Source: JAFGIT01 sp016929465 [NCBI: Candidatus Coatesbacteria bacterium] | GTDB lineage: Bacteria; B130-G9 | DNA length: 9,812 nt | Direction: 5' to 3' | Assembly: GCA_016929465.1 (NCBI GenBank) | Contig: JAFGIT010000353.1 | Span: 1 to 9,812 of the forward strand | In this document: in pieces, positions 3 through 9,812 of the stretch | Layout: every line of letters begins with the position of its first letter | Position numbering within the stretch: the first letter of the stretch is position 1 | Notes under the pieces: model-generated | The model's input: the letters and a program-made list of their open reading frames with translations, nothing else | Told to the model about the DNA's origin: nothing | The model's database searches: none | Position numbers and translations under genes: made by a program

Positions 3-1946
3 GGCCTCACGATGGTGAGAAGCAGACTCATCGGACGGTTTGAGCCCATCAATGAGCGTTTTGGTTTCGTGATTCCACTTACTCCAGGCGCTGAAGATAT
101 TTTCGTCAACTCGAGATGCTGGGGCGGCGCAATCGACGGTGACATTGTCGAGGTTTCATTCACGAAGAAGCGGCGCGGGCGAACAAGTGGCCAGATCGTC
201 CGCATCGTCAAGCAGACCAGACGTGAGATAGCTGGCAAGGTTCTGAAGACAAGGCATGGGATGTTTCTCGAGCCTCTTTCCGCGAAGCTCTTCTTCGATG
301 TCGTCGTGGTAGGAAATGAAGCCGGGCGGATGGATGACGGCTTGGTTGTGAATACGAAGATCGAGCGAATCGATGCCAGGGCCGGCCAGGTACACGTCAC
401 GATTACGGAGGTATGGGGCAAGCCGGATGATCCGGAGGTCCTTTGCAGGATAATCATAGCCAAATACGACATCCCGACGAATTTTTCGGAAGAAGCACTC
501 AGGCAAGCCAAGTTGACCCCGAAGACAGTCGAGGAATCGGAGATTGAGAAGAGAACAGACCACCGTGGCCTGGTGACGTTCACTATCGACGGCGAGCAGG
601 CGAAGGACTTCGACGACGCGGTCAGCATTAGGCGTCTTGATGAATCGTATCGGCTCTGGGTTCATATCGCGGATGTCGGCCATTATGTAGAGGAGGGGTC
701 TGCTCTCGATGAGGACGCCCTCGATAGAGCGAATAGCGTCTATTTTCCGGGCAGCGTAATACCGATGCTGCCATTTGAACTCTCGAACGAGATATGCAGT
801 CTAAAGCCGAATGAGGACAGGCTGACAATGACCGTCCAAATGGACTTCGACAAGACAGGGCAGATCATCAAGTCGAAGGTCTATGAGAGTGTGATAAGGA
901 GCAATGCCAGACTGACCTACACAGAGGTCGGTGTGATTCTCGAGCAAAAGAGAGACGACTTGCGCGAAGGGGATACTGTCCCGGGTTTTACGGAAGACCT
1001 TCTTCTAATGGGAGAGCTTGCCGGTCTGATAACCCAGCAGAGGATGAGTCGGGGCAGCTTGGACTTCGACCTTCCCGATCCGGTGATCATTCTGGACCTT
1101 CAGGGCGATCCCGAAGATGTGGTCCGGGAGGAGCGTAACCTCGCTCATCGGCTTATCGAGGAGTTCATGATCGCGGCCAATGAATCGGTCGCCTGTTTCC
1201 TGACCACGTCCGGTTCGAAGTGCCCATATCGAATCCATGAGCCTCCCGACGAGGAGGGTCTGATTGGCTTGTCCAGAGTTCTCAAGGCGATTGGATTCAG
1301 TACATCTTTTTCTGGCGGCGACATCTCCGAGAAATTCCAGAAGCTCGTCGAGAAGGTTCGAGGCAAGCGGATTGAGCGGCTGATCTCGTACTTGATCCTA
1401 CGGGCACTCAAGATCGCCAAGTACTCGCCCGAGAATATCGGTCATTTCGGTCTTGCCTCGGAGTGCTATGCACACTTCACTTCACCCATAAGACGTTATC
1501 CTGATCTGATGGTTCACAGGTACGTGAAGCAGCAAATCAAGGGCAAGTCGAAATTCAATGTTGGGATGGGCGCTGAGGCCCTCAAAGAGGCTTCATACCA
1601 TTGCTCCGTTCGCGAACGGGCGGCGATGTCAGCGGAGAGGGAGATCGTCAAGATGCGTCAGGCGCAGTTCATGGCAGACAAAGTGGGTGAGAAGTTCTCG
1701 GGCATAGTCTCTGGTATGAACGCGAGGGGCTTTTATGTTGAGCTCGACCGGTATTTTGTGGAGGGATTCGTGTCGGTCATTTCGCTGACTGATGATAGCT
1801 ACTCGTTCAATGAGGAGAAGCAGCGCATCGTTGGCCTCAAGAACGGGAGACAATTCAGGATGGGGGACCCTGTGGAGATTGCTGTACGGTCCGTGCAGAT
1901 TCCACTTGGTAGGATTGATCTTAAGTTGATTGCTTCAAAGGCTTAA
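3..1946 (+). CDS. rnr: Ribonuclease R (RNB-family 3'-5' exoribonuclease), 5' end outside the window
   Basis: Processive 3'-to-5' hydrolytic exoribonuclease of the RNase II/R family, acting in the cytoplasm on structured RNA. Counting from the ATG at 12, the order is cold-shock-like OB domains (about 1-140, with the RNA-binding stretch RFGFV), the RNB catalytic domain (about 180-500) and a C-terminal S1 domain (about 557-641). The metal-binding acidic cluster is intact in IDGEQAKDFDDAVS: D193, D199, D201 and D202. Other family motifs are LWVHIADVGHYV, YRIHEPPDEE and HFTSPIRRYPDL. The frame is already open before the ATG (Gly-Leu-Thr from position 3), and the first visible residues align with the middle of the usual first cold-shock domain, so the N-terminal helix-turn-helix region and true start probably lie upstream. 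The S1 domain ends without the lysine-rich tail of enterobacterial RNase R. The DUF401 gene starts 14 nt downstream, so co-transcription is likely. The family call is very secure. Confidence 0.96.
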   Translation, partial: GLTMVRSRLIGRFEPINERFGFVIPLTPGAEDIFVNSRCWGGAIDGDIVEVSFTKKRRGRTSGQIVRIVKQTRREIAGKVLKTRHGMFLEPLSAKLFFDVVVVGNEAGRMDDGLVVNTKIERIDARAGQVHVTITEVWGKPDDPEVLCRIIIAKYDIPTNFSEEALRQAKLTPKTVEESEIEKRTDHRGLVTFTIDGEQAKDFDDAVSIRRLDESYRLWVHIADVGHYVEEGSALDEDALDRANSVYFPGSVIPMLPFELSNEICSLKPNEDRLTMTVQMDFDKTGQIIKSKVYESVIRSNARLTYTEVGVILEQKRDDLREGDTVPGFTEDLLLMGELAGLITQQRMSRGSLDFDLPDPVIILDLQGDPEDVVREERNLAHRLIEEFMIAANESVACFLTTSGSKCPYRIHEPPDEEGLIGLSRVLKAIGFSTSFSGGDISEKFQKLVEKVRGKRIERLISYLILRALKIAKYSPENIGHFGLASECYAHFTSPIRRYPDLMVHRYVKQQIKGKSKFNVGMGAEALKEASYHCSVRERAAMSAEREIVKMRQAQFMADKVGEKFSGIVSGMNARGFYVELDRYFVEGFVSVISLTDDSYSFNEEKQRIVGLKNGRQFRMGDPVEIAVRSVQIPLGRIDLKLIASKA

Positions 1947-1960
1947 GATATATAGCGCTT

Positions 1961-3241
1961 ATGTCTTCTGTAACAAAGATCATCATAATTTTCGTCGCGG
2001 TTGTATTCAGCCTGAAGGTGAAGTCACCGCTCGGTGTTTCTCTTTTTGTGGGCTCTATTGCCCTTGGCCTTTGGCTCGGAATGCCACTCGATGCGCTCGG
2101 TTTCAGCCTAGTCGCGGGGGTATTCGATCCACCTAACCTGGTGCTCCTTCTGATTATCGCCGAAATCATTCTCTTGTCGGCGGTGATGCAGGAGACTAAG
2201 CAGCTTCGCAAGATGGTCGCGGCGGTTCGCGAGGTCATTCGGAATCCCAGGTTTGCGGTGCCGACAATGACGGCGATCATAGGGTTGTTGCCGATGCCGG
2301 GGGGCGCGAGGTTCTCTGCTCCATTAGTTGATGAAGCTTCGCAGGACCTGGATACAGACAATGTGCATAGGGCTACAATCAACTATTGGTTTCGGCATAT
2401 ATGGGAGTACTGGTGGCCCTTCTACCCGTCCGTGATATTGATATGCGCGATTACCGGTTTCAGCATCGGCAAGATAGTTGTGGTGTTTTTCCCCGCTTCG
2501 ATAGTGATGGTCACGGTCGGTTACTTCTTTTATTTGCGGCGCTTCCCGAAGTTCAAGGCGTCCGACGTTGGGAAGCCGAAGGGCTCTCTGCTTCGCCTCC
2601 TGAGCGTAAGTCGAGCCATTATAGCGGTGATTGTGCTCAATTTCGCCTTGGTTCAGCTTCGGGCTGGACTTGAGTCCCTTGGCGTCCCTCTGCAGGGGCT
2701 TCCGACACGTTTCCCCCTTGTGCTGGCACTCATTGTGGGGATCATGATGGCCTGGCGGGGGACGGGGCTGACATCTCGAGCGGTGGCTAAGATGGTCTTC
2801 AACATGCGGGTTGCGATGAACATGTTGACAGTTGGCTCGATACTGATTTTCAGCCGAGTTCTGGAGGACGCAGGAGCAATCAAGGATATGACCGAGACGC
2901 TAAAGAGCCATGACGCGCCACTGCTTCTCTTGGCGATTGCCGTGCCCTTCCTGGTGAGTTTCGTTACTGGCATAGTCGTGGCGTATGTCGGTATTGCGTT
3001 ACCGATCCTGTATCCGGTCTTCGTCGCCTCCCTGCCAGCATCGGAGATCCCAGCGTACTTGTTCATGTTCTCGGTCTCGGGCTTTATAGCGGTTATGCTG
3101 ACGCCGGTGCACCTCTGCCTAATTCTCTCCAATGAGTATTTCGAGGTTAGATTCACGCAGGTTGCACGCTACCTCATAGCGCCTTGCGCCTTGTCGATGG
3201 TAATTTACCTCGGCATCTTCTTCGTCTACCGAATGCTCTGA
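1961..3241 (+). CDS. DUF401-family polytopic membrane protein
   Basis: Inner-membrane protein of 426 residues, the normal size for the DUF401 family (PF04165). Function is unassigned; its many hydrophobic helices with reentrant-looking Gly/Pro segments resemble carboxylate-type transporters, but that is inference. About ten or more hydrophobic segments are visible, beginning at residues 5-19 and 26-40 and ending at the C-terminus. The best markers are PMPGGARFSAPLV at 111-123, the aromatic segment NYWFRHIWEYWWPFYPSVIL at 141-160, and a late Gly/Pro-rich stretch (SFVTGIVVAYVGIALPILYP) typical of transporter cores. ATG 1961 is the first start codon in this frame after the in-frame stop at 1922, although no good Shine-Dalgarno sequence precedes it; translation may be coupled to rnr, which ends 14 nt upstream. 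lspA follows after 100 nt. Family call is good, substrate unknown. Confidence 0.88.
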   Translation: MSSVTKIIIIFVAVVFSLKVKSPLGVSLFVGSIALGLWLGMPLDALGFSLVAGVFDPPNLVLLLIIAEIILLSAVMQETKQLRKMVAAVREVIRNPRFAVPTMTAIIGLLPMPGGARFSAPLVDEASQDLDTDNVHRATINYWFRHIWEYWWPFYPSVILICAITGFSIGKIVVVFFPASIVMVTVGYFFYLRRFPKFKASDVGKPKGSLLRLLSVSRAIIAVIVLNFALVQLRAGLESLGVPLQGLPTRFPLVLALIVGIMMAWRGTGLTSRAVAKMVFNMRVAMNMLTVGSILIFSRVLEDAGAIKDMTETLKSHDAPLLLLAIAVPFLVSFVTGIVVAYVGIALPILYPVFVASLPASEIPAYLFMFSVSGFIAVMLTPVHLCLILSNEYFEVRFTQVARYLIAPCALSMVIYLGIFFVYRML

Positions 3242-3279
3242 TCGACAATCCCGAATTGCCCAGATCCGCTATCGCGAAA

Positions 3280-3308
3280 TTGACTTCTTTATGCTCCAGG
3301 GTTAGTTT
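3280..3308 (+). promoter_or_regulatory. Possible sigma70-type promoter for lspA
   Basis: TTGACT (3280-3285) matches the -35 consensus at five of six bases and lies 17 nt from TAGTTT (3303-3308), which keeps the first, second and last bases of the -10 consensus. Transcription would begin near 3315 and give a leader of under 30 nt before the TTG start at 3342. The -10 is weak, and transcription from upstream is equally possible. Confidence 0.28.
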
Positions 3309-3331
3309 CTCCAACATCGGAATCCACATTT

Positions 3332-3337
3332 GGAGGG
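3332..3337 (+). promoter_or_regulatory. Ribosome binding site that fixes a TTG start for lspA
   Basis: GGAGGG lies 4 nt before an in-frame TTG at 3342. A longer reading from TTG 3330 would place this site inside the coding sequence, and the later TTG at 3354 is 16 nt away, too far. There is no in-frame ATG before the first transmembrane helix, so TTG 3342 is the best-supported start. Confidence 0.65.
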
Positions 3338-3341
3338 TCTC

Positions 3342-3956
3342 TTGTCTTTAGAGTTGCGGTCTCAGGTTTGTTCACTGAGATCATTTTTCAGATTTTGTCT
3401 GTCTTCCTGGCTGTTCCCGGTCGCCTTGTTGGTCGTGCTTTTGTCTGACCAGGCGACGAAGCTCTGGATTCGCAGCAGCCTCGTTTTCGGAGAACAGCGG
3501 CCGATAATAGACGGATTTCTGAATATGATTCATACGATGAATCGTGGGATCGCGTTTGGCTTCCTCTCCGGCAACGACCACCCGCACAAGACGGTGATGC
3601 TGTCGATTGGCGCGTTGATTGCTGTTGTTGCCTTTTCCTGGTTCGCGGCCTATTACGGTGGCAAGCGACGGTCAGTCGCCTTTGCGGTGGCGCTGCTCAT
3701 CGGAGGGACGCTCGGGAACTTGATTGATCGAATGTCCTACGGCGGGGTAATCGACTTCATAGACGTTCATTACAAGAACACATATCACTGGCCTGCCTTC
3801 AATATAGCTGACGCGGCGGTTTCATTCGCAACCTTGCTGATCCTGGTCCGCATCGCCAAGCATGGTTTCAAGGAGAACGCTTCACTCACTAAGGAATCCT
3901 GCTCTTCAGACCAGGTCCTTCAGCCATCTTCTGAGCGCGAACTTACCGAGGGATAG
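3342..3956 (+). CDS. lspA: Lipoprotein signal peptidase II (prolipoprotein signal peptidase)
   Basis: Inner-membrane aspartyl protease (family A8) that removes the signal peptide from diacylated prolipoproteins after Lgt and before Lnt. From the TTG at 3342 it has 204 residues with four hydrophobic helices (about 23-35, 84-104, 111-121, 155-171). Family motifs are all present: SDQATKLW with D36, NRGIAFGF near 67-74, GNLIDR with catalytic D129, and FNIADAAV with catalytic D157. It is longer than the usual 150-170 residues because of about 22 extra N-terminal residues and a hydrophilic tail of roughly 30 residues after the last helix. The last 51 nt of that tail overlap, on the opposite strand, the 3' end of the HPP-family gene. 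It lies 100 nt after the DUF401 gene on the same strand and may share its transcript or use the candidate promoter at 3280. Identification is secure; only the start is uncertain. Confidence 0.95.
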   Translation: MSLELRSQVCSLRSFFRFCLSSWLFPVALLVVLLSDQATKLWIRSSLVFGEQRPIIDGFLNMIHTMNRGIAFGFLSGNDHPHKTVMLSIGALIAVVAFSWFAAYYGGKRRSVAFAVALLIGGTLGNLIDRMSYGGVIDFIDVHYKNTYHWPAFNIADAAVSFATLLILVRIAKHGFKENASLTKESCSSDQVLQPSSERELTEG

Positions 3957-4451
3957 CAGTGTAGCGCCGAGCACGACACTGAAAGCCATCTCATAGGAGA
4001 ACGGCGCGATGGATGAGCCGACAGCGGTGCCAGCGGCTGGCGGGTGCTCTGTATCAGTCGCGACCATGACGAACAAAGAGGCTCCCACCGCCAGGCTGCA
4101 CGCCAGAATGCTCTCGATGTCGGGATCGATCTTGATTGCCTGGAATACCCATCCATGCATGATCAACCTTATCAGCGATCCGGTCAGAAGGCACAGGACG
4201 TGGCCGCCGACAATATAGCGAGGATTTGAGCGAATCTTGTGGGGCATCGCGAACACGACGAATGCCGAGGAACCCAGGGCCGCCACGATCACCAGATGTC
4301 CCAGCTTCAGCAGAAGGAGCAGCAACACAGCGACGCACGCGGTCGCGATGGCAGTCTGTGCTATGTAATGCCCCCACATGCCCTTCTTCAATTTTGGATC
4401 GAAGGCATGCCAATTGTGTGGCTTCTGTCTTTGCTCAGAATTATCTGACAT
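3906..4451 (-). CDS. HPP-family integral membrane protein
   Basis: Small polytopic inner-membrane protein of 181 residues. The family is named for the His-Pro-Pro motif, here at residues 136-138 in DTEHPPAAGTAVG. About five hydrophobic segments are visible (roughly 29-49, 51-69, 79-99, 112-131, 154-172), preceded by a charged N-terminal tail. A second marker is the SSAFVVFAMPHKIRSNPRYI region (61-80), also typical of the family. Plant and cyanobacterial members have been linked to nitrite transport, but nothing here indicates the substrate. The frame can be opened 24 nt further upstream, but ATG 4451 has a perfect GGAGG six bases before it, so I chose that start. It lies 47 nt downstream of the radical SAM gene on the same strand and its 3' end runs 51 nt into the end of lspA, which is convergent. 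Confidence 0.88.
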   Translation of the reverse strand: MSDNSEQRQKPHNWHAFDPKLKKGMWGHYIAQTAIATACVAVLLLLLLKLGHLVIVAALGSSAFVVFAMPHKIRSNPRYIVGGHVLCLLTGSLIRLIMHGWVFQAIKIDPDIESILACSLAVGASLFVMVATDTEHPPAAGTAVGSSIAPFSYEMAFSVVLGATLLSLGKFALRRWLKDLV

Positions 4452-4457
4452 AAATCG

Positions 4458-4462
4458 CCTCC
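4458..4462 (-). promoter_or_regulatory. Ribosome binding site of the HPP-family gene
   Basis: On the - strand GGAGG reads from 4462 to 4458, six bases before ATG 4451. It decides the start: the longer reading from 4475 would add eight residues and would place this site inside the coding region. Confidence 0.8.
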
Positions 4463-4498
4463 GTAGGTTAATCAAAGCGTCGACGCGGTGGGCGCTTC

Positions 4499-5449
4499 CT
4501 ATTCGAGCTCCCGTATCTTCTGTCCCCTGCCGCCCACATAGAAGATTTTACCCTTATGCATATAGGTCGCAATCTTATCTTTCGCTGATAATTCCCTGAT
4601 CTCGCCCAGTAATATAGGCCGCTTTCCACCTACGGCGCTTTCGATATCCTCGATCGTGCAGGGCCTTCTTGAAACTAGTGCGAGAATGTCGGAGGCGATG
4701 TCTCTGCCGGTATCCTCGGAGAATGTTCTCTTGGGGCCTCCTATAACCATCGCATTCGGCCCGATTCTGGAAGCGAGCATTTTCAAAACCTCGAATGAGA
4801 CTGGTTTAGCCCATTCTTCCGACCCGGGTCTTTCCACTGTGCCCACCTGAACGAGTAATGGATTGATTCGGTTTACCGCCTCGGTCAGGGCGATCAAGTC
4901 GTCCTCCGAGTCATTCAAGTCCTCGACTATCAGTATTTCGAGCCAAACATCTCCATCGAACGCCCGGACGAAATCCCTCTGCGCCTCGATTATTTCGGCA
5001 ACCAGGATACCTTTTGCTGGGAGATTGACCTTCTCAAACGATGCCTGCCTGGCAGAGTCGAGGGAGGGCACAACCAGGTCCGCGTTGAGTAATTCCTGAA
5101 ATACTCCCTTGTCTGTTATTAGAGAGCCATTTGTCAGGACCGCGACCTTAACATCTGTGAGTCTTTTTATCTCACGTATGGTCTCCCCGAGTTCCAAATT
5201 CAATGTTGGCTCTCCACTTCCGCCGAGAGTGATGTAGTCGATCTGTCGTCCTGTCTTCAGGGCCGAGCTGATTTCATCGAGCACATCAGCAATAGAATCG
5301 AAATATCTGCGCCGCGTTTTCTCGTGGACAGTTGTATGACCACATTCGCAATAGACGCAGTCGAAAGAACAGGTCTTGTATGGAACCATATCCACGCCGA
5401 GAGACATCCCCAGCCTTCTCGACGGGACCGGCCCGAAAATATATCGCAT
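4499..5449 (-). CDS. Radical SAM protein of the COG0731 / TYW1-Taw1-like group
   Basis: Cytoplasmic [4Fe-4S] enzyme of 316 residues that would cleave S-adenosylmethionine to make a 5'-deoxyadenosyl radical. The cluster motif is CSFDCVYC (C27, C31, C34; spacing CX3CX2C), with a further cysteine at C36. The SAM-binding GGSGEPTLN lies at 76-84. The N-terminus (YIFGPVPSRRLGMSLGVD) is characteristic of proteins annotated as wyosine synthetase-like radical SAM. TYW1/Taw1 makes the tricyclic base imG-14 at tRNA-Phe position 37 in archaea and eukaryotes; bacterial homologues of this group are mostly uncharacterised, so the reaction here is unknown. The last 70 or so residues (CTIEDIESAVGG onward, with a REL helix and a GKIFYVGG strand) look like a winged-helix domain. 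The frame extends ten residues further, but ATG 5449 is preceded by GGAGG at a 5-nt spacing. The HPP gene follows after 47 nt, probably in one operon. Confidence 0.88.
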   Translation of the reverse strand: MRYIFGPVPSRRLGMSLGVDMVPYKTCSFDCVYCECGHTTVHEKTRRRYFDSIADVLDEISSALKTGRQIDYITLGGSGEPTLNLELGETIREIKRLTDVKVAVLTNGSLITDKGVFQELLNADLVVPSLDSARQASFEKVNLPAKGILVAEIIEAQRDFVRAFDGDVWLEILIVEDLNDSEDDLIALTEAVNRINPLLVQVGTVERPGSEEWAKPVSFEVLKMLASRIGPNAMVIGGPKRTFSEDTGRDIASDILALVSRRPCTIEDIESAVGGKRPILLGEIRELSAKDKIATYMHKGKIFYVGGRGQKIRELE

Positions 5450-5454
5450 ATCAA

Positions 5455-5459
5455 CCTCC
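5455..5459 (-). promoter_or_regulatory. Ribosome binding site of the radical SAM gene
   Basis: On the - strand GGAGG (5459 to 5455) lies five bases before ATG 5449. This favours the start that gives MRYIFGPVPS over the one ten residues upstream, and agrees with where similarity to this family normally begins. Confidence 0.8.
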
Positions 5460-5481
5460 AAAGAAAAAAGCCAGCTCAAAG

Positions 5482-5751: not shown

Positions 5752-8700
5752 ATGAAATTCGGCTTCGTATTACTACTGGCTTCATTGTTGGGCGTTTTTC
5801 TTTTTGGGATGACCGGACTTTATGCTGCTCCGCTTGGATTTGCCTCATGCAGGTTTGATCCGGCAGTCTCAGGAGAGCCTCATTTCCCCGAAATATTGGT
5901 ATATAGAGATGTCCCAAGCGACGGTGATGTTCATTACATAGCGCAGTTCGGCTCTCCCATATCGAGGGATATGCGGGATTCTCTCCTGAGAACAGGGGCA
6001 CGAATAACTGGGTATGTGCCCGACTTCGCGTTCGCGATTAGTGCTTCCGGGGCACAGATCGCTGCGGTGAAGGAGATTCCTGGGATTGTGTATGTCGGTG
6101 TCTTCCATCCGGCATTTAAATTGCCTCCCGATTTTCAGCCCGAGCGAATTGGGGACTTCCTCTCGTGGGAGGAAGTGGGAGATATAATCGAGGTCAACAT
6201 TCAGGCCTTTCCAGACGCCGAGATCGAGAGTCTGGAGAATGAGATAGAGACAATCCGGGGACATTTTTCGATTGACGGAAGCTGTTGTGGCCATCGCCGG
6301 GCGAGATTCCATGTCTTGATCCCAAGAGAGGAATTCGCAGACACGGTCTATTCGATCGCTCGCATTCAGGATGTCGAGTGGATTGAATACTACAAGCCTC
6401 CCGAGCTATTCAACGATGTTGCGCGTTGGGTCGTGCAATCCTATCAGGATGATTACACGCCGATCTGGGACCATGGTATCAAGGGAGAGAATCAGATCGT
6501 CGGCATAGGGGACACTGGCGTTGACGCGGATATGTGCTTTTTCTACGACGATGAGGAGGGGCTCCCGGACGACAGTGTCAACAATGACCAGAGAAAGATC
6601 ATCGCCTATTATGATCTTGCGGGAAATGGTGACTGGGATGCACACGGTCACGGAACACATACTTCCTGTTCGATAGCAGGCGACAATTCGGCAAATGAGA
6701 ACGCCTATGACGAGAATGACGGAATAGCCTACAATGCGAAGCTAGTCTTCCAGGACATTGGTCGAGGTTCCTCTCTGTCGCTTCCAGACGACCTATATGA
6801 GGATTACTTCCTTCAAGCGTTCGATGCAGGTGCAAAGCTTCATTCGAACAGCTGGGGCTGGAGCTACTGGGATGAATATTCGGTCTATTGCCAGGATTCC
6901 GATGCCTTCATGTGGGATCACAAGGACTTCTTGATCCTGTTCTCGGCAGGCAATGACGGCCCATACGGCTATAGCATAGGTAATCCCGCCTGCGCGAAGA
7001 GCATTCTGACTTCAGGCGCGACGGAGAATGCCTACACATACTATGATCCCGAGAACATGGCGTATTTCAGCAGTCACGGTCCGGTGGCGGACGGCAGGAG
7101 AAAACCGACAGTGAGTGCTCCGGGCTATGAGGTCGACTCCGCCATGTGTGACTACAACATAGGTACTTACAACTGCGACACCTGGAAGAATTCTGGTACC
7201 AGCATGTCCTGCCCGATTCACGCCGGATGCGGCGCGCTTGTTAGGCAGTATTTCGTTGACGGTTTCTATCCCTCGGGTGAGGCTAATGCGTCGGACTCCT
7301 TTATCCCGAGCAATGCCCTATTGAAGGCGGTGCTTGTGAACTGCGCTCAGAATATGACCGGTTATTACACGGACGGTGACATTCCTTCTAACGGGCAAGG
7401 CTGGGGCAGGGTGCGTCTGGATAACACGTTGCACTTCTCAGACGACGACCTACAGCTGATTGTCGTGGACGAGACGACCGGACTCTCGACATCTGAGGAT
7501 ACGATCTTTGAGTATCAGGTGGACGGCTCGAGCAGGTTGGAGGTTACACTCGTTTGGACTGACTATCCGGGTGAGGTCTATTCGAATCCGAGCCTTGTCA
7601 ACGATCTTGACCTAGTCGTATCTGGGCCTTCGGGCACTTTCAAGGGCAGCAACTACGAGAGCGGTCAATCGAAGGAGGGCGGCAGCGCGGACCATCTGAA
7701 TCCCGTCGAATCGGTTCAGATCAACAGCCCTGAGGCCGGGAGCTATACGATTACCGTTACAGGATATAATGTGCCTGAAGGGCCGCAGTCCTTTGCGCTA
7801 GTTGTTATCGGTGCCAGTGAGTTCGTTGGTGGGCCCTGGCCTATGTTCATGCACGACGGAAGTCACACCTGCCAGGGCGAAGGTGACCTGCCCGGATCCG
7901 CCGGGGTGAAGTGGTCCTATCAGGCGGATGGCACAATCAGGTCCTCTGCAATTATTGACGATGATGGAGCAATCTGCTTTGGCAGCGGCGGCGGCAAGCT
8001 GTATTTCCTGGATGAGTATGGCTCGCTGAAGAGCAGCTACAACGCAGGCTCGGCGATAGTATCGACACCGTCGTTCTATTCTGGAGGTGACGTGTTCTTT
8101 GGGGCAGAGAATGGCAAGGTCTATGCGGTTCGCTCGGACGGGACATTGAAGTGGACCTACGACACGGGCTCTTCAATTGCTTCGTCGCCGGTAATCGGCG
8201 ATAGCGGACGGGTATATATTGGTGCTGAGAACGGCAAGCTCTATTCGCTCTCGAACTCCGGTGGGCTCGAATGGAGCCACGTGACGAGCGGCGCCGTAGT
8301 CAGTTCCCCTGCGATTGGCGCGGACGGGCTGATCAGGTTTAGTTCTGGTGATGGGAAACTGAGGGTACTCGATTCGTCCGGAAGTCTCGTCGGGAGCTAT
8401 CAGGCCCCCGATGAGATCAATAGCTCCCCGTCAGTCGCTGAGCAGGGAGTATGCTATTTCGGATGCGACGACGGCTATCTCTACGCTGTAGATTCCGGCG
8501 GTTCCCTCTCATGGTCTAGGTCGATAGGAGCCGCGGCGGGAGCCTGCTCTCCGGCGATCGATGCGGACGGCAACGTCTATATTGGAACGGGAGGGGGCAG
8601 AATCAGCAAGTTCAACTCCTACGGGACATTGCGCTGGTCGTATTCAACGGGGAGCGCCATCTGCGGTGCACCCGCTGTGGGGCAGAATGGGCGCATCTCC

Positions 8701-9812
8701 TTCGGGACCGAAAGCGGCTATCTCTATTGCTTGTCTTCGAGCGGAAGCCTGGTGTGGTCAGCCTACACAGGCTCGGAGATCACGAACTCAGTGACCATCG
8801 GTGAAGGCCTCAACTTCTTTACGGGGCTTTCGAACGGGAAGATGCTCTCGATGACCCGGTCGAACGCAGATCCAAATCTCGAAAATGGTGATGTCAATCC
8901 AGATCGGGGCAATAAGGGCACGACCTTCACATTCACGGTCGATTACTCCGATAGCGACGAGGATGAGCCTGATTTTGTCTATGTCTATATCGACGGTAGC
9001 CCTCACACGATGTCACTCGACTCCGGCAATTCATACGACGGAACCTATAGCTACAGCACCACCCTCTCTGAGGGCGACCACGAATACTACTTCTACTGCG
9101 AGGATGTTTGCGGCGGCATAGGACGCGATCCCGAGTCCGGCACTTACGATGGGCCCTCAGTTAATTATAGCCCGACTCTGACTGACGGTCATGTCACACC
9201 CGAGAGCGGTAAGGAAGATGATACTTTCACGTACTCGGTCTTTTACTATGACTATGAGGAAACCGCACCCATCCAAAAGCTTGTATATATAGACGGTGGA
9301 TCCCACGGAATGACCCTTTATTCGGGCGATGCCGGCAACGGCGAATATCGCTTTGAGACAAGCCTGGGTCAAGGCGGCCACGAGTTTTATTTCTACTTCA
9401 CCGACCAGGACGGTGCGTCGGCACGACTGCCAAAATTTGGCGCCTATGACGGCCCGGATGTAACCGACGACTATGAGCCGGATGACACCTGTGCAGAGTC
9501 GAAATCGCTGCCATCCGATGGATCGAAACAGAACCGCTCAATCCATCCCGCGGAGGATATCGATTGGGCGGAGCTAACTGCAGTCACAGGAGGTCGCTAC
9601 ACGATTGAGACTTCCGAGTTGGACGGATGCAATACTCATCTCTACCTCTATGATGATGACTGTGAGACCCTGATTACCGATGATGACGATAGCGGCGATG
9701 GCTACGGCTCCAAGATCGAATGGAATTGCGGGGCGGGAGGGTCCTACTTCATCAAGGTCATCGATAGCGACGAAGAGGGGACAGGGACCTACAAGCTCTC
9801 GGCGATTGTGAA
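5752..9812 (+). CDS. Large secreted multidomain subtilisin-like (S8, KP-43-type) serine protease, 3' end outside the window
   Basis: Extracytoplasmic serine endopeptidase; 1353 codons are visible with no stop before the window ends. Domain order: signal peptide (about 1-26, h-region FVLLLASLLGVFLFGM); two propeptide-like alpha/beta units (60-124 and 144-220); S8 catalytic domain (about 225-562) with catalytic Asp254 in GIGDTGVD, His300 in HGHGTH, oxyanion Asn401 in SAGNDG and Ser484 in NSGTSMSCP; the C-terminal beta-sandwich of KP-43-like enzymes (about 564-690, marked by VTLVWTDYPG and VNDLDLVV); an eight-unit PQQ/BamB-like propeller (721-1040); two 100-residue Ig-like modules (1045-1237); and a PPC domain (1239 onward) with the acidic DDDDSGDGYG loop. 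Numerous cysteines and an acidic composition fit an exported, calcium-binding protein. Start choice rests on the GGGAG site and the signal peptide. The stop and any anchoring or sorting signal lie beyond the window. The KP-43-type assignment is by motif recall, not search. Confidence 0.95.
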   Translation, partial: MKFGFVLLLASLLGVFLFGMTGLYAAPLGFASCRFDPAVSGEPHFPEILVYRDVPSDGDVHYIAQFGSPISRDMRDSLLRTGARITGYVPDFAFAISASGAQIAAVKEIPGIVYVGVFHPAFKLPPDFQPERIGDFLSWEEVGDIIEVNIQAFPDAEIESLENEIETIRGHFSIDGSCCGHRRARFHVLIPREEFADTVYSIARIQDVEWIEYYKPPELFNDVARWVVQSYQDDYTPIWDHGIKGENQIVGIGDTGVDADMCFFYDDEEGLPDDSVNNDQRKIIAYYDLAGNGDWDAHGHGTHTSCSIAGDNSANENAYDENDGIAYNAKLVFQDIGRGSSLSLPDDLYEDYFLQAFDAGAKLHSNSWGWSYWDEYSVYCQDSDAFMWDHKDFLILFSAGNDGPYGYSIGNPACAKSILTSGATENAYTYYDPENMAYFSSHGPVADGRRKPTVSAPGYEVDSAMCDYNIGTYNCDTWKNSGTSMSCPIHAGCGALVRQYFVDGFYPSGEANASDSFIPSNALLKAVLVNCAQNMTGYYTDGDIPSNGQGWGRVRLDNTLHFSDDDLQLIVVDETTGLSTSEDTIFEYQVDGSSRLEVTLVWTDYPGEVYSNPSLVNDLDLVVSGPSGTFKGSNYESGQSKEGGSADHLNPVESVQINSPEAGSYTITVTGYNVPEGPQSFALVVIGASEFVGGPWPMFMHDGSHTCQGEGDLPGSAGVKWSYQADGTIRSSAIIDDDGAICFGSGGGKLYFLDEYGSLKSSYNAGSAIVSTPSFYSGGDVFFGAENGKVYAVRSDGTLKWTYDTGSSIASSPVIGDSGRVYIGAENGKLYSLSNSGGLEWSHVTSGAVVSSPAIGADGLIRFSSGDGKLRVLDSSGSLVGSYQAPDEINSSPSVAEQGVCYFGCDDGYLYAVDSGGSLSWSRSIGAAAGACSPAIDADGNVYIGTGGGRISKFNSYGTLRWSYSTGSAICGAPAVGQNGRISFGTESGYLYCLSSSGSLVWSAYTGSEITNSVTIGEGLNFFTGLSNGKMLSMTRSNADPNLENGDVNPDRGNKGTTFTFTVDYSDSDEDEPDFVYVYIDGSPHTMSLDSGNSYDGTYSYSTTLSEGDHEYYFYCEDVCGGIGRDPESGTYDGPSVNYSPTLTDGHVTPESGKEDDTFTYSVFYYDYEETAPIQKLVYIDGGSHGMTLYSGDAGNGEYRFETSLGQGGHEFYFYFTDQDGASARLPKFGAYDGPDVTDDYEPDDTCAESKSLPSDGSKQNRSIHPAEDIDWAELTAVTGGRYTIETSELDGCNTHLYLYDDDCETLITDDDDSGDGYGSKIEWNCGAGGSYFIKVIDSDEEGTGTYKLSAIV
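7909..8868 (+). repeat. Eight tandem PQQ-like beta-propeller units within the protease gene
   Basis: Eight consecutive units of 40 residues (one of 41) begin at 7909, 8029, 8149, 8269, 8389, 8509, 8632 and 8752. Each follows the pattern W-S/T-Y, a hydrophobic stretch, SSPAI, DG, VYIG, a small DGKLY strand, then a turn ending in GSL. This is the blade signature of PQQ_2/BamB-type propellers, and eight is the usual blade number for that fold. Unit 8 is the most diverged and unit 2 lacks the tryptophan. The repeat is conserved in protein more than in DNA. Confidence 0.85.
8884..9462 (+). repeat. Two tandem 100-residue Ig-like modules within the protease gene
   Basis: Two copies of an all-beta module align without a gap at a spacing of exactly 300 nt. 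Shared landmarks are P1050/P1150, IDG at 1080/1180, the GHEFYFY-type strand, and YDGP at 1132/1232. Copy 1 carries a cysteine pair (CEDVC) missing from copy 2. Such modules serve as spacers or adhesion domains in secreted proteins. Confidence 0.8.

Follow-up and report, generated by a model that had tools for sequence, protein, structure and literature searches.

The subtilase-propeller frame

The stretch of DNA analysed here, called the window, is the entire contig C83 (9,812 bases; JAFGIT010000353.1) of a draft genome from a Candidatus Coatesbacteria bacterium (G000; 3.2 Mb, 423 contigs, 86% complete, 3.5% contamination, repeat-rich), and the subject of this work is the gene at its 3' end, which encodes a subtilase (family S8) joined to a beta-propeller. 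The contig ends within this gene, whose frame (5752-9810, forward strand) comprises 1353 codons, is stop-free and is still open at the contig end. An earlier note made from the letters alone had described a protein of more than 1350 residues with its end not visible, consisting of S8 domain, beta-sandwich, propeller, a pair of immunoglobulin-like (Ig-like) modules and a PPC domain; length, domains and their order were all recovered, the PPC match being a weak one (Table 1).

The Pfam family Peptidase_S8 matches residues 245-552 with an expectation value (E) of 1.4e-38, and residues 1-433 of KP-43 (1wmd) align, by sequence only, over both the catalytic domain and the beta-sandwich (E 4.2e-65), which substantiates the KP-43-like sandwich proposed to follow the S8 domain. 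Subtilases carry an Asp/His/Ser triad in the motifs DTG, GHGTH and GTSM, and in the window protein D254, H300 and S484 constitute this triad, which had been noted as intact and is conserved in the orthologue introduced below. The head thus reads clearly as a KP-43-type subtilase with putative activity. AlphaFold2, provided with an alignment of 14 sequences, did not model the S8 catalytic core (predicted local distance difference test, pLDDT, mostly 21-40); it draws the preceding prodomain region as two beta-alpha-beta-beta-alpha-beta units with pLDDT values of 60-83 in parts and 30-50 elsewhere, which are possibly two I9-like units. A Pfam scan of residues 1-220 at E 0.01 gave no match. At the N-terminus, signal cleavage may take place before the AP, which is a guess.

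For the propeller, the window protein matches the Pfam families Beta-prop_ACSF4 (E 3.8e-48) and PQQ_2 (E 6.4e-22), so that a domain search of residues 721-1040, which the earlier note had named as a check, does find propeller families. Residues 719-1038 are filled by eight consecutive repeats of 39-41 residues each, as laid out by eye, and the predicted structure (pLDDT mostly 83-96 in blocks of ten residues, a few blocks 66-79) forms a closed ring of eight blades, as had been expected from the repeats. Its best solved match is Cake8 (6tjg), superposing with Z 50.0 and a root-mean-square deviation of 1.1 A over 320 of 320 residues (TM-score 0.98 on the target; Foldseek and VIA-align), and natural PQQ-like propellers (YxaL, BamB) rank below it. 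Fold, blade length and ring closure are accordingly shared with Cake8, v31Bagel8 (8prj), YxaL (7dxn) and BamB; unlike these designed and natural PQQ/BamB-like propellers, the one described here sits on a protease chain. By NCBIfam it is not a BamB, as its score for TIGR03300 (88.7 bits) lies below the family cut-off (285.2 bits).

Both Ig-like modules of the earlier reading were found with a module profile built from the own-phylum genomes. The last module scores 16.7 bits against the PPC family PF04151 (gathering score 25.9) and is hence called PPC-like only. As a single-sequence model of the Ig-Ig-PPC part was unusable (mean pLDDT 36.5), the assignments of these three modules are sequence-based.

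Table 1. Features of the window protein and their positions in the window
Feature	Residues	Positions	Strand	Basis or remark
Signal-peptide-like N-terminus	1-25	5752..5826	+	Hydrophobic stretch, assigned by eye on the translation
Prodomain region	34-220	5851..6411	+	Strand/helix pattern in model; aligned with WOR-3 and Eisenbacteria subtilases
Subtilase (S8) catalytic domain	~221-560	6412..7431	+	Pfam, KP-43 alignment, conserved residues
D254	254	6511-6513	+	Catalytic residue, identical in orthologue
H300	300	6649-6651	+	Catalytic residue, identical in orthologue
N401	401	6952-6954	+	Conserved residue, identical in orthologue
S484	484	7201-7203	+	Catalytic residue, identical in orthologue
KP-43-type C-terminal beta-sandwich	~561-690	7432..7821	+	KP-43 alignment reaching residue 433/434
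Eight-bladed PQQ/BamB-like beta-propeller	~691-1038, blades from 719	7822..8865	+	Pfam, repeats, model, structure matches
Ig-like module 1	1041-1137	8872..9162	+	Module profile; Big_13 17.5 bits, cut-off 27
Ig-like module 2	1141-1237	9172..9462	+	Module profile
PPC-like module	1256-1353	9517..9810	+	PF04151 below cut-off; present in orthologue; second copy further along giant frames
Contig end, frame open		9811..9812	+	Final bases AA agree with Asn next in orthologue

An orthologue in a second genus

Comparison within the own phylum, which is sparsely sampled, covered four genomes, all of one family. One of them (G002), representing another genus, encodes an orthologue being 66.9% identical to the window protein across 1353 residues without any gap. 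In each part from the prodomain on, the two genes differ by 0.52-0.73 changes per codon at the third position as compared to 0.07-0.36 at the first and second; the NG86 estimates for the propeller are 0.28 non-synonymous (dN) and 2.41 synonymous (dS) substitutions per site, and for the S8 part dS is saturated and gives no value. The first 33 residues are 30% identical and reveal little third-position bias. A fusion of a subtilase gene to a propeller gene by misassembly or frameshift could be suspected in a contaminated draft of so many contigs and repeats; however, the identical gap-free fusion occurs in another genus, with third-position-biased differences on either side of the junction, and the artefact was therefore set aside as extremely improbable, leaving intact the single uninterrupted frame that had been claimed.

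Probable continuation beyond the window

The contig carrying the orthologue (C3 of G002) breaks soon after the PPC-like module, within a third Ig module. The final 46 bases of C3 match bases 1-46 of another contig of this genome, C84, at 44 of 46 positions, end to end and in frame, the next-best match to the C3 end in G002 having E 0.106. From there, the C84 frame runs on through 6033 codons before it reaches a stop, and it is built of the same module types, namely the rest of the Ig module, a further Ig module, four propeller-Ig units, three Ig modules, a PPC, four Ig modules, 30 Ig-like repeats of another type and two C-terminal domains. When joined, C3 and C84 yield one S8 head, five propellers, 15 + 30 Ig-like modules, two PPCs and two copies of the C-terminal domain, the frame amounting to 7479 residues from the first Met (807 kDa, calculated isoelectric point, pI, 4.05) or to 7425 residues if it starts at the GTG aligned with the window's ATG. 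The late C84 repeats match NCBIfam NF047446 (E 2.3e-58) and Pfam Big_13; at residues 2798-5790 of the C84 frame (L032) the NCBIfam name is 'OmpL47-type beta-barrel domain', a name which may mislead, as the units are of about 98 residues and match Big_13.

Two contigs of the window's own genome correspond to C84. C382 encodes 4020 codons with both ends open and aligns with C84 from residue 255; C235 encodes 2046 codons, is open at its 5' end, possesses a stop and aligns from residue 3988 to the C84 end, whereby identity over C382 and C235 is about 57% from residue 255 on. A MAFFT alignment of C382 with C84 misplaced repeats, hence BLAST segments and repeat counts were used. In the placement of better identity (the second BLAST segment, 65% identical, taken together with the repeat count), C382 stops at C84 residue 3986 and C235 starts at 3988, and the preferred arrangement is accordingly one in which C382 and C235 would be neighbours about one codon apart. 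Propellers at equivalent positions of the two genomes, compared for four of the five, show 60-72% identity and those at different positions 26-40%, which suggests that the order of the array is old and was kept rather than having arisen by recent copying. Ahead of the C235 start, C382 (L033) bears 15 late Ig repeats as compared to 12 in C84 (L032), that is three extra ones, and stalk length seems to vary between the genera.

Considering the whole-length orthologue, the in-frame overlap of C3 with C84, the collinearity of C382 and C235 with C84 and the paralogues of the same plan described below, the window quite probably encodes the N-terminal fifth of a secreted giant, some 7,500 residues long and about 0.8 MDa in mass; in the window's organism the protein would comprise about 7,700 residues, counting about 290 missing ones. 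The idea of an S8-propeller-PPC enzyme ending near residue 1350 is thus not upheld, since the C3/C84 overlap and the collinear contigs indicate that probably thousands of residues are missing from its end. As a consequence, four more propellers and a second PPC would follow those of the window: the PPC of the earlier note persists as a match below cut-off that recurs in the orthologue, but not as the protein's end.

Several observations weigh against one such chain. In the two remaining genomes of the phylum (83% and 94% complete), S8 and propeller matches were compared for a shared frame at E 1e-30; these genomes contain S8 paralogues and no S8-propeller fusion. No single contig covers the C3/C84 join, and both mismatches within the 46-base overlap alter a residue, so that the contigs could end in two neighbouring, near-identical Ig repeats, the gene then being about 100 residues longer, or, less likely, the two ends could come from different genes. 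For the window's genome, the strongest BLAST segment extends the C382 end to C84 residue 4292, beyond the C235 start; C382 and C235 have no more than two end bases in common, their non-overlapping join is out of frame, and they are in frame only given a one-base overlap or a small gap. Finally, C83 and C382 share no end bases, the missing stretch lies between them, and a search for it in the window's genome returned matches only to other Ig and propeller modules.

Paralogues and the C-terminal domain

Five closed S8 paralogue records, measuring 2585 (L029), 2507 (L034), 2584 (L035) and 1265 codons (L030 and L031) from stop to stop, lack a propeller but otherwise combine the elements seen above, namely an S8 head, Ig modules of the same type and the shared C-terminal domain, and thus show the plan of the window protein in small. 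A headless giant of the window's genome (C201) is likewise closed, its 3824 codons encoding two propellers, Ig modules, a PPC and three C-terminal domains. Altogether, 81 matches to the window protein in G000 include 18 distinct frames of at least 1,000 codons (maximum 4,020), the window's own among them, and some of these may be fragments of a single gene.

The sizes of these closed genes, C201 included, together with the two mismatches of the C3/C84 overlap, would also be in line with a mid-sized protein, in which the S8-propeller gene ends with a C-terminal domain a few Ig repeats past the window and C84 as well as C382/C235 represent a separate gene missing its start. We consider this unlikely, as the end-to-end overlap of C3 and C84 is in frame and has no parallel in the rest of G002, and as in both genomes the S8 part is without its 3' end and the giant without its 5' end. 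Moreover, among the G002 matches listed, which regard contigs in reading direction only, C84's is the only one to begin within the first 100 bases of a contig. The giant chain is hence retained in what follows.

The C-terminal domain comprises about 107 residues and sometimes occurs two or three times in tandem. An iterated profile, run over 481 open reading frames (ORFs) of at least 120 residues from own-phylum loci with copies of the same gene merged by eye, located it in 20 distinct ORFs and at the ORF end in 17 of them (among these L029, L030, L031, L032, L034, L035, L036 and L141); none of 746 ORFs of at least 120 residues from other-phylum loci, which are short and were chosen for S8 or propeller, contains it. 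Nine aligned copies (alignment A3) share invariant N, G, D, P, G and Y. The domain is a candidate surface anchor, or a sorting or anchoring signal. Against such a role stand its internal location in three of the 20 ORFs, the lack of any Pfam match better than E 0.19 for the nine copies, the lack of an NCBIfam match at E 0.1 for the two C84 copies and a PDB match that is marginal only (E 0.039); given these family searches, anchoring is a guess. Type IX cargo signals (Por_Secre_tail, CHU_C) were found neither in C84 nor in the nine C-terminal domains, and Por_Secre_tail scores above its cut-off in two WOR-3 relatives (L067 and L068).

Distribution of the S8-propeller combination

The earlier note had held a propeller following an S8 domain to be an uncommon arrangement, and the surveys agree with this. 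A profile test of the ORFs of at least 120 residues in the fetched loci (most with about 1500 bases of flank, overlapping loci counted separately) yielded 72 records with S8, 56 with propeller and three with both, these being the window protein (L001) and one and the same G002 orthologue (L021 and L028); searches of this kind would overlook a subtilase of a different type, or parts set far apart by a long spacer. A genome scan with six exact peptide patterns retrieved 17 relatives, four by the S8 part and 13 by the propeller part, none of which unites an S8 part with a propeller. For one of the relatives, L067, the match reaches residue 740, but Pfam reveals CARDB/DUF11-like matches below cut-off there, and it was rejected as an S8-propeller protein.

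Further surveys, in which matches were read by eye for single or nearby-paired ones uniting both parts, covered 147 WOR-3 genomes (matches at E 1e-18 in 88; in many, scoring was limited to 15 candidates), 47 Eisenbacteria genomes (matches at 1e-30 in 14), 392 genomes from the larger group of Planctomycetes (matches at 1e-25 in 54; scoring limited to five candidates per genome) and six further genomes of relatives; among the matches listed for the WOR-3, Eisenbacteria and Planctomycetes genomes no fusion was identified, and a few survey matches extend beyond the sandwich (e.g., G081 to 250 of 311). Of 72,556 plasmid records 150 gave a match, and none of the 15 matches listed covers 80% of S8 plus propeller; viral contigs gave no match to the peptide patterns. 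Among the open-licence papers listed by full-text searches, none describes an S8 domain with a PQQ-like propeller, as judged by its title and the beginning of its abstract. The combination therefore looks rare and lineage-bound. In a planctomycetotal locus (L071), an ORF at 9818-14083 on the forward strand encodes a propeller, PKD, Ig and then a Peptidase_C13 match at 22.7 bits (cut-off 22.8), perhaps another pairing of protease and propeller, in which the propeller comes first and the protease belongs to another class.

Upstream of the gene, positions 12-5479 of the window encode, according to Pfam, a ribonuclease R-type RNB protein, a DUF401 protein, signal peptidase II, an HPP membrane protein and a radical SAM protein, with a tail-to-tail overlap (3906-3956) between the frames of signal peptidase II and the HPP protein. 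By eye, the frames 5' of the G002 orthologue look unlike these.

Comparison with known systems

KP-43 and SubHal (1wmd, 5fax) share catalytic domain and beta-sandwich with the window protein along their whole chain (E 4.2e-65 and 2e-63), the KP-43 chain stopping where the propeller starts. The nearest published design found in the literature is that of the nanohaloarchaeal 'SPEARE' surface giants (8,880-9,409 residues, pI 4.0-4.1), which are reported to have a signal peptide, to carry two propellers with PQQ motifs close to the N-terminus as well as some 75 Ig-like repeats, each of 100 residues, and to end in a membrane helix plus an ATPase domain of the VirB4/TraG type (PMC10266531). The name, an earlier one, derives from a predicted serine protease, whose absence is argued in the same work (PMC10266531). 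If the C3/C84 join holds, the G002 protein, with its propellers and Ig-like stalk, resembles this design; unlike it, the window protein has a clear S8 head, and neither half of C84 matches an ATPase family at E 0.01. It was therefore considered SPEARE-like in plan, and not a member of that family. A Mobiluncus adhesin of 7651 residues with 51 Ig-like domains (PMC10619420) resembles the proposed giant in size and tandem Ig-like stalk, the beginning of its abstract mentioning neither protease nor propeller. Parts of known kinds are hence assembled here in a combination and at a scale that look new.

Proposed function

The reading of the window protein as a scaffolded or surface-held protease, already suggested by the earlier note, remains the best one; most likely the protease is displayed at the cell surface by a very long stalk. 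Somewhat favoured is the fuller picture of a bacterial giant of about 7,400-7,700 residues whose single chain has a subtilase at its head, five propellers of eight blades each, some 45 Ig-like modules and, at the C-terminus, an anchor typical of the lineage, and which works as a catch-and-cut surface organelle. The suggested mechanism assumes that the protein, for which the signal-like N-terminus points to an extracellular location, would be exported through Sec, as judged from the families present. The prodomain may hold the protease folded and inactive until it is cleaved off, autoprocessing being assumed by analogy with the KP-43 enzymes of Bergeyella. The C-terminal domain would fasten the chain to the cell envelope, whereby the acidic Ig repeats would serve as a long stalk. 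Propellers near the tip may then bind a polymer, another cell or a substrate, and finally the tip protease would cut the captured protein.

A variant that differs in substrate and is compatible with the giant chain holds that the subtilase is self-processing: its targets would be the giant that carries it or adjacent surface proteins, which it would shed or mature, and not captured material that it digests. Of three KP-43 subfamily enzymes of Bergeyella, two are reported to self-cleave their propeptide, which is unlike I9 (PMC11982257), and the genomes studied here encode many large repeat proteins; no observation made here separates such self-processing from the cutting of captured protein, and we regard it as rather doubtful.

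If the join is true, a bacterial protein of very large size whose tip carries a recognisable enzyme would have been identified. It would resemble the propeller-Ig giants of archaea but bear a genuine protease, and propeller-Ig surface giants could then be asked about as predatory or scavenging tools, beyond adhesins. With S8 paralogues on short, medium and giant stalks occurring in one phylum, stalk length and propellers become testable variables, and the shared C-terminal domain offers a way into the question of how proteins may be attached to the cell surface in this phylum.

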